From Verrucomicrobiaceae bacterium (lineage in GTDB: Bacteria > Verrucomicrobiota > Verrucomicrobiia > Opitutales > Intestinicryptomonadaceae): 64,000 nt of DNA. The stretch covers positions 1-64,000 of the forward strand of contig SUVO01000012.1 in NCBI GenBank assembly GCA_015061955.1, read 5' to 3'. The first letter of the stretch is position 1; every line of letters starts with the position of its first letter. The translations under genes were made by a program, and so were the position numbers. The notes below the pieces were generated by a model that saw nothing but the letters and a program-made list of their open reading frames with translations, made no database searches and was not told the DNA's origin. Positions 22,202-50,852 of the stretch are shown piece by piece.

Positions 22202-22921
22202 TTATTTCTTAGGTGCTTCAGCCTTTGGAGCTTCTGCTTTGGGTGCATTCTTCACGTCTAAGATTTCAACATCGAAAATTAAAGTTGAATGTGGTGGAAT
22301 TCCTGGTATAGATTGAGCTCCGTAGCCAAGTTTTGCTGGAATGTACAATATAACTTTGCCACCTCTACCAACTTTTTGCAAACCTTCTCTGAATCCTGGA
22401 ATTACATTTGCGAGATTAAATGTTGCTGGTTGACCATGTTTATCGGTGCTATCGAATACAGTTCCATCAACAAGTTTACCAGTATAGTTTATCGTTACAT
22501 CTGAGTTATCCGATGCAATTTCTTTGTCTGAACCCTTATCTATAACTTTGAAAGCCAAGCCCGAAGCTGTTTTTTGGACGCCTTCTGTTTTTTCTAATTC
22601 GCTCCAGAATTTAGCCGATTTTGCTTCAGTTTCTTTGGCTTTTTCTGCTAAAGTAGCTTCGGCACGATTTTTGAGGTATTCCATCATTTTCTGACCAAAA
22701 GTATCGATATTCTTTGGCAAGTCTTTACCTGCATAAGCATCTTTCATACCTTGTAAAAAGATGTCGAATTCTGTTGGAGTTAATTTCAGTTCGCTCAAAC
22801 CACCGTTTTTATATACAATCATACCAAAGGTTTTGATGTAATCTTCGTTTGTTTCAGCGAATGTTGATGTTACTGCTGCTGCCGAAATTGCAGCTGCTGC
22901 TATTGTCTTTTTTATATCCAT
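22202..22921 (-). CDS. exported FKBP-type peptidyl-prolyl isomerase
   Basis: A signal peptide (about 1-22, ending TFA) is followed by a helical FKBP N-terminal dimerisation domain (about 25-120). The FKBP catalytic domain then has VTINYTGKLVDGTVFDST, NVIPGFREGL, YIPAKLGYGA and PPHSTLIFDVEILDV. The last 15 residues are Ala/Pro/Lys repeats (KAEAP units). This is the layout of FkpA/Mip proteins, which catalyse proline isomerisation and chaperone proteins in the periplasm. It is divergent from the PEP-CTERM gene across a 219-bp region. Confidence 0.92.
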   Translation of the reverse strand: MDIKKTIAAAAISAAAVTSTFAETNEDYIKTFGMIVYKNGGLSELKLTPTEFDIFLQGMKDAYAGKDLPKNIDTFGQKMMEYLKNRAEATLAEKAKETEAKSAKFWSELEKTEGVQKTASGLAFKVIDKGSDKEIASDNSDVTINYTGKLVDGTVFDSTDKHGQPATFNLANVIPGFREGLQKVGRGGKVILYIPAKLGYGAQSIPGIPPHSTLIFDVEILDVKNAPKAEAPKAEAPKK

Positions 22922-23071
22922 ATTATGATTCTTTCGTTATGTTTGTAATAAATGCGTGTATATAATTGACATGATAAAATACAAAATGTTCCCACTTTGC
23001 AATATCAAATAATGTTTAAGTGTTATTTTCTTCGGTAAAAATAAAAAAATATTAATTTTTATAAAAAAAGC

Positions 23072-23102
23072 TTGACAAAGATTGTTGGGGGGGGGGTAGT
23101 AT
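23072..23102 (+). promoter_or_regulatory. promoter with a G10 tract in its spacer
   Basis: TTGACA (23072-23077) is a perfect -35 box. A run of ten G (23087-23096) fills the second half of the spacer, and TAGTAT (23097-23102) is a reasonable -10. The spacer is 19 bases; loss of two G would give the optimal 17. Homopolymeric G tracts in promoter spacers are a known phase-variation device, for example at Neisseria porA. No other G or C run of this length is seen in this AT-rich window. Confidence 0.6.
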
Positions 23103-23140
23103 TTGTCAAATTTATAAAATAAAAAGAGAAAGTTATAAAA

Positions 23141-24475
23141 ATGAAAAAAATTCTACTTCCACTTATTACTTCTGCATTTATTACCTCAGCGTTTGCAGTA
23201 GATTATACAATTATAGGCAGTGGCTTATGGTACAATAGCGCTATTTGGCAAGGTGGTACAGCTCCTGTAGCAACTGATCCATCATCTGCTATTGATAACC
23301 TAAGTTTTACACAGCCAACAACAGTTGTAAAACTAACAGGTGATAATAGTGGTAAATATTATGTTAAGAATTTTGTTGGTTCAACATCACAATCACAAAC
23401 AATTCGTTTTGTTACAAATTCTGAACACCAAAATGAACGTTTTGCAAATATAACTGGTAATGAAAATTATCGTGTAAACTTCATTTGGGGGGCAACAGAA
23501 GCAGAGCTTGCTGCGCGTACTGTAAGTGGTCTAAGTGTAACAGGTAATTCTCCATTTTGGACTTATGTAACAGATAAATCTACATCTACTACTACTTACA
23601 AGTATGCTAATGTTACTGTAAATTCAATTATGTTGACCGATAATTTAGTATTAGATAATACTACATTGAATTTATCGTCTGTTAAACTTGCACGTGGTGG
23701 AAGTAATTCTTTTACTTCTATTACTTTGAAGAATGGTTCAGTTGTAAATTTGAATTCAAATAAACATCAATACAATGTATCTAAGTATATACAAATAAAC
23801 ACAGGTACATCGTTTATTTCAAACAACAATGCAACGCTTAAAGTTAGCGATTATATCAATCTTGATGGCGAATTGAATTGGACTGGCGAAAAAGGTTCGT
23901 TGATTGTTGCAAATAAAATTCGCTTCAATGGTGGCACTTTGAGATTAACTGGTTCTGAAGTTCTCACAAAAACTGCTTTGAGCGATAGTAAACCTGATAT
24001 TACTGCTATATCATTAAACAATTACGGCAATTCAAGAATCGAGCTTGGTGGAAACGAATCGTTTGATTACATTGCCCAAACATTACAAAAATCTGGTAGC
24101 AAATATGTAGATACTGTACGCCAGTTTACATTCAAGTTGCACGAAGATACTACACTTTTAAGTATAAATAAGCTCTACAATAGTCTTAATAATGATTACG
24201 TTGGTGCATTAGGTGGAACTGGTACAAATTCTGATGGTTCTACATATACTTGGGATATTCAATATATTTTTGAAGATTTCTCAAATGGTGTTGTAAGAAT
24301 AGCACAAGCTTTAACAGATGAAGAATTGACCCATTTTTACGCTGATGGTTGGGAAAACTTTACACAAAATTCAGATGGTTTCTTATATGCCACAGCAGTT
24401 CCAGAACCAGCTGAAATTGCGATTGCTTTTGGCGTAATTGCTTTAGCTTTTGCATATTATCGCCGTCGTAAGTAA
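23141..24475 (+). CDS. PEP-CTERM surface protein
   Basis: This 444-residue exported protein has a signal peptide (about 1-19, ending AFA). A long Ser/Thr/Asn-rich beta-strand region like autotransporter-associated repeats follows (LDNTTLNLSSVKL, ITLKNGSVVNLNSN, FNGGTLRLTGSE). It ends in a PEP-CTERM sorting tail: VPEP, a hydrophobic helix (IAIAFGVIALAFAYY) and RRRK. In bacteria with exosortase the tail is cut and the protein delivered to the cell surface or EPS matrix. Its promoter carries the G10 tract described at 23072. A terminator follows at 24498. Confidence 0.85.
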   Translation: MKKILLPLITSAFITSAFAVDYTIIGSGLWYNSAIWQGGTAPVATDPSSAIDNLSFTQPTTVVKLTGDNSGKYYVKNFVGSTSQSQTIRFVTNSEHQNERFANITGNENYRVNFIWGATEAELAARTVSGLSVTGNSPFWTYVTDKSTSTTTYKYANVTVNSIMLTDNLVLDNTTLNLSSVKLARGGSNSFTSITLKNGSVVNLNSNKHQYNVSKYIQINTGTSFISNNNATLKVSDYINLDGELNWTGEKGSLIVANKIRFNGGTLRLTGSEVLTKTALSDSKPDITAISLNNYGNSRIELGGNESFDYIAQTLQKSGSKYVDTVRQFTFKLHEDTTLLSINKLYNSLNNDYVGALGGTGTNSDGSTYTWDIQYIFEDFSNGVVRIAQALTDEELTHFYADGWENFTQNSDGFLYATAVPEPAEIAIAFGVIALAFAYYRRRK

Positions 24476-49435: not shown

Positions 49436-49559
49436 ATATGTTAAAATTTTAATTTTATTGTATAATAATAGTGAAAAAAAGATTGACAGATTGGTATAAA
49501 TAACGTTTTATGTGTTCCTTATTTTTATGAATTTTTTAACTGATTAATATAATATATAT

Positions 49560-50852
49560 ATGAAAAACAAAATAACATCTATAACAGCATTGATAACATT
49601 TGCATTTGTGGGGAGTGTAAATGGTGGCGAATATAAAGAATCAACCTATAAAAACTATATGGAAACATCTAATAGTACTTTTACTTCAACTGGTTCTATA
49701 TATTTTAATAGTGGTTGGACAAGTTCTAACGATACTCTTACAACAGGGTCTGGATCGGCACTATATTTACAAGGTTCCAGCTTGTCAGCACAACCAACAA
49801 AAATACCCTATAATATAACTGGTGCAAATATAACTGCTAGTGGTGGTTTGTATTCTCAAAGAAATGCTAATACTCTTATAGAAAATTCTATATTAAATGT
49901 ATCAGGTAAAATTTGTGTACAACAAGGTGAATCAAGTTTGTATATAAAGAATTCAACAACAACTTTTAATGCAACTGGAATGAGTCAAGTTGTCGATGGC
50001 TCTTCACTTACGATTGATGGTGGTTCGTTTACTATTACAGGTGATCAGCAAATAAGCGTAAAGCAAGGTTCTACAATTGCATTTAAAAATATTACAGTTG
50101 ACTTGGCGGAAAATTATATTGCAACAGGTACAGATTCATCGTATAAGAATGCTTCGGCTAAAATTGTAGTAGATAATGCTCAATTTACAGCTCATCATAT
50201 AGAATTATATGGTTATACATCAGCAGGCGAATTACCAATTTTAGAAATAAAAAATGGTTCTACCGTAACTACTGCTATTGGTACATTTATGGGGCCGGTT
50301 CTTTGGAAAGGTGTGCGCGGTGGTACAATTATTGTAAGTGATAGTTCTGTATTCAATTCAACGAGTGATTTGTATCAGGCAAGTGAAAGCGATAAGCAAG
50401 TTTATACTTCTGATGTAATTGTAAAAGATGGTAGTAAAGTTTTTGTAGATGGCGATGTAGATTTGAATTCTGTCTCTGTTACATCTGATGGTTCTTTAGA
50501 AGCTGATAATGTTTCTGTAAAATCGTTAGTTGTTGCAGAAGGCTCTTCAATCACTTTGGCAGAAGAAGGTACACTTAGTTTCGAAAATCTCGAAATTATT
50601 GTAGATGACATGTTGGCAGAAGGTTCGGAAATAGATCTTAATTCTGTGCTTTCTGGAGGTTTAGGCGTTGTGTTGTCATCGCTTGAAGCTGATGATGCAG
50701 TAGTACTTAATAATGGGGTAAGCAAGTTTAATGCAGTTGTTGATTCAAATGGCGTAGCATTGGTAGGTTCTGCAGTTCCAGAACCATCGCAATGGGCTAT
50801 GATTTTGGGTACTATTGCATTAGGTTTTGTAATGTATTTTAGAAGAAAATAA
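49560..50852 (+). CDS. PEP-CTERM surface protein, second copy type
   Basis: This 430-residue exported protein has a signal peptide (about 1-21, ending VNGG). A Ser/Thr-rich beta-solenoid-like region follows, with repeated ladder strands (NSTTTFNATG, SLTIDGGSFTITG, SLEADNVSVKSL). It ends in a PEP-CTERM tail (VPEPSQWAMILGTIALGF, then RRK). It is an exosortase substrate by motif, but no exosortase gene lies in this window. It shows no close sequence match to the 23141 protein outside the tail and general composition. A TTGACA at 49483 could be its -35 box. A tiny membrane ORF begins 1 base after its stop. Confidence 0.83.
   Translation: MKNKITSITALITFAFVGSVNGGEYKESTYKNYMETSNSTFTSTGSIYFNSGWTSSNDTLTTGSGSALYLQGSSLSAQPTKIPYNITGANITASGGLYSQRNANTLIENSILNVSGKICVQQGESSLYIKNSTTTFNATGMSQVVDGSSLTIDGGSFTITGDQQISVKQGSTIAFKNITVDLAENYIATGTDSSYKNASAKIVVDNAQFTAHHIELYGYTSAGELPILEIKNGSTVTTAIGTFMGPVLWKGVRGGTIIVSDSSVFNSTSDLYQASESDKQVYTSDVIVKDGSKVFVDGDVDLNSVSVTSDGSLEADNVSVKSLVVAEGSSITLAEEGTLSFENLEIIVDDMLAEGSEIDLNSVLSGGLGVVLSSLEADDAVVLNNGVSKFNAVVDSNGVALVGSAVPEPSQWAMILGTIALGFVMYFRRK

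Follow-up and report, generated by a model that had tools for sequence, protein, structure and literature searches.

Does an unbroken run of G residues in the promoter spacer of a bacterial surface-protein gene work as a length-dependent switch, and does such a run concern one gene or many? The question is raised by a promoter in the window, by which we mean the whole analysed stretch of 64,000 nucleotides, and the first-pass annotation had answered it with likely phase variation of a single PEP-CTERM gene. On re-reading the sequence, TTGACA, the 19-base spacer with its G10 and TAGTAT were all found where they had been described (Table 1). This G10 is the only run of at least eight G in the window (three overlapping matches against 0.15 expected from shuffles). 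An imperfect inverted repeat that flanks the tract, TTGACAAA/TTTGTCAA (23056-23125), might have acted as an operator or formed a hairpin, a reading that was rejected because it is absent from the sister sites.

Table 1. Coordinates of the G-tract promoter, its target gene and other features of the window
Feature	Position	Strand	Remarks
FKBP-type peptidyl-prolyl isomerase gene	22202..22921	-	Divergent neighbour outside the promoter; PF00254, E 4e-24
-35 element TTGACA (23072-23077)	23070..23077	+	GC just before, as at most sister sites; TTGACA in 28/28 sisters
Spacer, variable part AAGATTGTT, 9 nt	23078..23086	+	8-10 nt in sisters; first 8 nt with 55% mean pairwise identity
G10 homopolymer, 3' half of spacer	23087..23096	+	6-10 G in sisters, abutting TA
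-10 element TAGTAT (23097-23102) and conserved TTG	23097..23105	+	Consensus TAGYATTTG
Gene for 444-aa exported PEP-CTERM-like surface protein	23141..24475	+	Start 44 bases past the G tract
C-terminal sorting tail VPEPAEIAIAFGVIALAFAYYRRRK	24398..24472	+	E 5.6e-20, profile of 11 tails including its own
PEP-CTERM gene starting at 49560, TTGACA at 49483	49483..50852	+	Contrast within the window; without G tract

The target that had been proposed for this promoter, a surface protein, is borne out by a signal peptide at the N-terminus (MKKILLPLITSAFITSAFA) and a PEP-CTERM-like tail, in which a PEP motif, a hydrophobic stretch and a basic end, the features by which PEP-CTERM proteins are recognized, are all present. 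No Pfam domain was found in the protein, and its matches to the NCBIfam PEP-CTERM models are weak (E 0.06-0.08, below the cut-off); three sisters whose tails are of this kind do pass the cut-off of TIGR02595 PEP_CTERM. The genome from which the window comes, hereafter the source genome, contains about 48 PEP-CTERM genes according to a tail-profile search and three PF09721 matches over the cut-off, representing exosortase genes. Judging by the type of tail and by features of the genome, the organism may belong to Verrucomicrobiota. In a congener, the most similar homologue of the window gene (L061 and L049; G003:C3:106938-108225) is split over two frames, corresponding to residues 1-172 and 173-444, because of either a frameshift in the gene or an error in the assembly.

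The tract had been described as a feature of one gene, a view that the rest of the source genome (2.43 Mb in 35 contigs) overturns, as it belongs to a genome-wide module of PEP-CTERM genes. The module, TTGACA-N8..10-G6..10-TA, mostly ending in TAGYATTTG, occurs at 28 distinct loci, counted after duplicated contig ends had been merged; the sequence was read directly in the neighbourhood of the tracts, of PEP-CTERM genes and of contig ends. Nearly all of the 25 tracts returned by a G9 search share one layout, in which GCTTGACA is followed by 8-10 bases of mixed sequence, by the G run and then by TAGCATTTG or TAGTATTTG. At most sites the module lies 33-53 bases from the start codon of a signal-peptide gene, a position that suits a promoter. 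PEP-CTERM genes follow it at 25 of the 28 loci, and the remaining three targets also encode exported proteins, of which one is long and has Ig-like domains, one is a Sel1-repeat protein and one is a further Ig-like protein.

Composition would predict roughly 0.6-1 distinct runs of at least nine G in 2.43 Mb; there are 23, of which 20 lie inside the module. One of the three outside it is a C9 tract upstream of a PEP-CTERM gene, without -35 and -10 elements. A query that leaves the G residues out, TTGACA-N8..30-TAGYATTTG, gave 19 matches, all of which contain G8-10 and have spacers of 18 or 19 bases. At 27 of the 28 loci, G fills all eight positions immediately before TA, and the first eight bases of the spacer are only 55% identical on average between pairs of sites. 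Given that a G-rich element under loose constraint should show interruptions, we take the near-pure run to be an integral tract.

Spacer length is narrowly distributed among the 28 sisters, with 19 bases at 14 loci, 18 at 11, 17 at two and 16 at one. The length of the non-G prefix and the number of G residues are negatively correlated (rho -0.63, p 3e-4, 28 loci); a longer prefix thus pairs with a shorter G run, which indicates that the total spacing has been held. These figures do not sustain the earlier proposal that a 19-base spacer is an off state from which the loss of two G residues would restore an optimal 17, since 25 of the 28 spacers measure 18-19 bases and just two measure 17. Judged from the sequences, 18-19 bases is more likely to be the working range of a G-filled spacer. 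A spacer survey of ordinary promoters in the source genome gave no clear peak. The very uniform spacing across loci would be equally compatible with a fixed promoter and with a switch.

Evidence on variation of the tract comes from the assembly. The end of contig C26 and the start of contig C15 share 153 of 154 bases, and the sole difference is G10 vs G9. Contigs of this assembly that are true neighbours in the graph overlap by exactly 127 identical bases, which marks a k=127 graph, and the first 127-mer of C15, composed of 117 nt, G9 and T, is the first k-mer by which the two lengths can be told apart. As the overlap splits exactly at the k=127 branch, both G9 and G10 were present in the reads, with support enough for retention, and this pair could have arisen by polymerase slippage during library preparation. 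A second contig break occurs at a G10 (C21/C7), and four contig ends fall within 130 bp of a tract, vs 0.2 expected. As a separate observation, a dispersed repeat family (GTGTGTGGTGTCTGCTAAAAGAG..., CAAAAGTGCGTCATAAGCTGTGAGG...) lies at the ends of many contigs of the source genome (G000; e.g., L155, L177, L198).

The source genome encodes MutS, and slippage aided by absent mismatch repair was rejected on this ground. With mismatch repair apparently present, slippage rates may be modest, as MutS would keep mononucleotide slippage low.

Within the family, a loose form of the pattern returned 0-4 matches in each of 13 congeners and five other members, near the level of the reversed control, and 64 in the source genome; a stricter form (spacer up to 18) returned zero matches in the same 13 congeners and five other members. 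Among 388 surveyed genomes of the phylum, the source genome had 29 matches and the next best four, with reversed-pattern controls almost empty, and some of the matches in other genomes precede genes for exported proteins, one of which is a PEP-CTERM gene (L148). A blind scan of about 85,000 genomes (species) for TTGACA-N7..12-G8-TANNAYTTG yielded 31 sites. A hydrophobic N-terminus was encoded downstream in 23 of the 27 evaluable cases vs 72 of 188 control ORFs. The viral contigs that were scanned contained no matches.

One genome of rabbit-gut Bacilli carries eight such promoters with near-identical flanks, G10, G11 or G12 and spacers of 18-20 bases, and a tract-free sister promoter has a spacer of 17; this family is an independent case of the same promoter design. 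The proteins encoded behind the G10-G12 promoters of these uncultured Bacilli form an exported family (MKKEKKSHFN...YSALNASVKITGDV; L074, L081, L082, L088, L092, L093, L095, L096). In Microcystis, two PEP-CTERM promoters from two genomes (L068, L084) are identical at 39 of 40 upstream positions and carry G11 vs G14 in the spacer. Comparison of these sequences suggests several separate origins of the design, mostly ahead of exported proteins, with the tract length as the part that differs. The phase variation first proposed for the window is upheld only in part: the sister locus, the paralogous Bacilli promoters and Microcystis indicate indirectly that such tracts vary in length, while the assembly gives a single length for the window's own tract.

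Taking these observations together, we favour, at a probability of about 60%, a multi-locus, porA-like family of phase-variable promoters in front of some 28 exported-protein genes, 25 of them PEP-CTERM genes, in which switching would follow from changes in the tract. Gain or loss of a single G during copying probably alters the output of each surface protein in the bacterium. Slipped-strand mispairing would add or remove single G residues, and each step would shift the distance between the -35 and -10 elements by one base and lead to a graded change in transcription, as in Neisseria porA, with 18-19 bases as the presumed active range of the G-filled spacer. If the promoters slip independently, a population would come to contain PEP-CTERM surface proteins in many different combinations. 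Selection may keep most promoters near the working length, and the pure G run may keep them mutable. The fuller version of this account, in which about 28 surface genes share one copied, slippage-prone promoter, each is tuned independently by single G residues round an optimum of 18-19, and the Bacilli and cyanobacterial promoters have separate origins, strikes us as an even bet.

Promoter-homopolymer phase variation has been described mostly for single genes or small sets of genes in pathogens. The counterpart in Neisseria that had been invoked for the window does exist in porA, where a G homopolymer occupies the promoter spacer ahead of a surface gene; in Neisseria meningitidis, expression is high with 11 G, about half with 10 G and 13-fold lower with 9 G (PMC3639595). 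Both systems place a perfect run of about 9-11 G within the core-promoter spacer ahead of a surface-protein gene, and porA exhibits graded expression at single-G resolution (PMC3639595). The Neisseria case, however, concerns one gene, whereas the module described here is found at about 28 loci, most of which belong to an exosortase-sorted family, and its switching is predicted. In Treponema pallidum, the tract of tp0126 lies between the -35 and -10 elements and expression is best at a spacer of 17 (PMC7864442). Poly-G in the promoters of several outer-membrane protein genes (tp0126, tprE/G/J/L) resembles the present arrangement, but there a handful of genes have differently placed tracts, and here the placement is identical 28 times with the spacer mode at 18-19.

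Akkermansia muciniphila, a gut member of the Verrucomicrobia, has PEP-CTERM proteins and a proposed slippage-based phase variation (PMC3048395); the tracts noted for it differ in being intragenic (G8 and C10 in capsule genes) and outside PEP-CTERM promoters (PMC3048395). The title of PMC9850573 reports an RpoN-dependent PEP-CTERM gene in Aquincola tertiaricarbonis. The likeness lies in the transcriptional control of a PEP-CTERM surface gene, and the difference in its sigma-54 dependence, in contrast to the sigma-70-type-looking -35 and -10 elements with a G tract found here. Among the papers searched, none tied PEP-CTERM genes to promoter G tracts.

The strongest competitor, which we nonetheless regard as unlikely, is that the tract has a constant role within a common PEP-CTERM promoter, either structural or as the binding site of a regulator, and that changes in its length are mutational noise which is purged. 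Either A-like poly-G DNA would make a spacer of 18-19 bases workable or a regulator would bind there, and the shared promoter would coordinate a regulon. One conserved module in front of one gene class is what such a role would produce, as are the concentration of spacers at 18-19 bases (25/28) with compensation between prefix and G length, and the fact that a TAGYATTTG promoter without the tract was not found in the source genome. Yet a role in binding or geometry would probably bear a broken G-rich sequence and the run is unbroken in every copy, the remaining spacer is just 55% identical, G9 and G10 occur together at one locus, and three tract lengths stand between fixed flanks in a single Bacilli genome.

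Much less probable is a recent spread by duplication or gene conversion, under which the uniformity would reflect descent and the G run would have no selected role. Shared sequence does extend past the core, several copies have common upstream flanks and the module is absent from congeners, but the spacer next to the tract and the downstream proteins have strongly diverged, the tract has no internal substitutions, and other lineages evolved similar promoters of their own in front of genes for exported proteins. A chance run or an assembly artefact can practically be dismissed. Homopolymers are prone to sequencing error, but the same layout recurs at 28 loci of one genome, and reversed-pattern controls gave 3 and 0 matches vs 34 and 29 for the true patterns; the excess of runs of at least nine G, the 28-locus module and the G-free query that always returned G8-10 refute this explanation.

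A phase-variable promoter family of this kind, if true, could give the organism very many surface states. A single promoter module has apparently been copied to about half of the PEP-CTERM genes of one organism, which offers a testable explanation of the way in which surface proteins sorted by exosortase could diversify. The 28 promoters also constitute a natural series on how poly-G in the spacer shifts the best distance between the -35 and -10 elements.

The remainder of the roughly 48 PEP-CTERM genes, including the one in the window that begins at 49560, are without the module. A G8 run upstream of C9:72263 was considered as a further copy and rejected, as it differs from the module promoter. 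Several PEPSTYAMIFGAI-type PEP-CTERM genes are preceded by a second shared promoter-like motif, approximately TTGCAATGGGTATTTGTAATACTATAT, which has no G tract and is located in the upstream regions of G000 C18:117731, C22:108439, C29:16966 and C18:11959 (loci L108, L105, L102 and L106).
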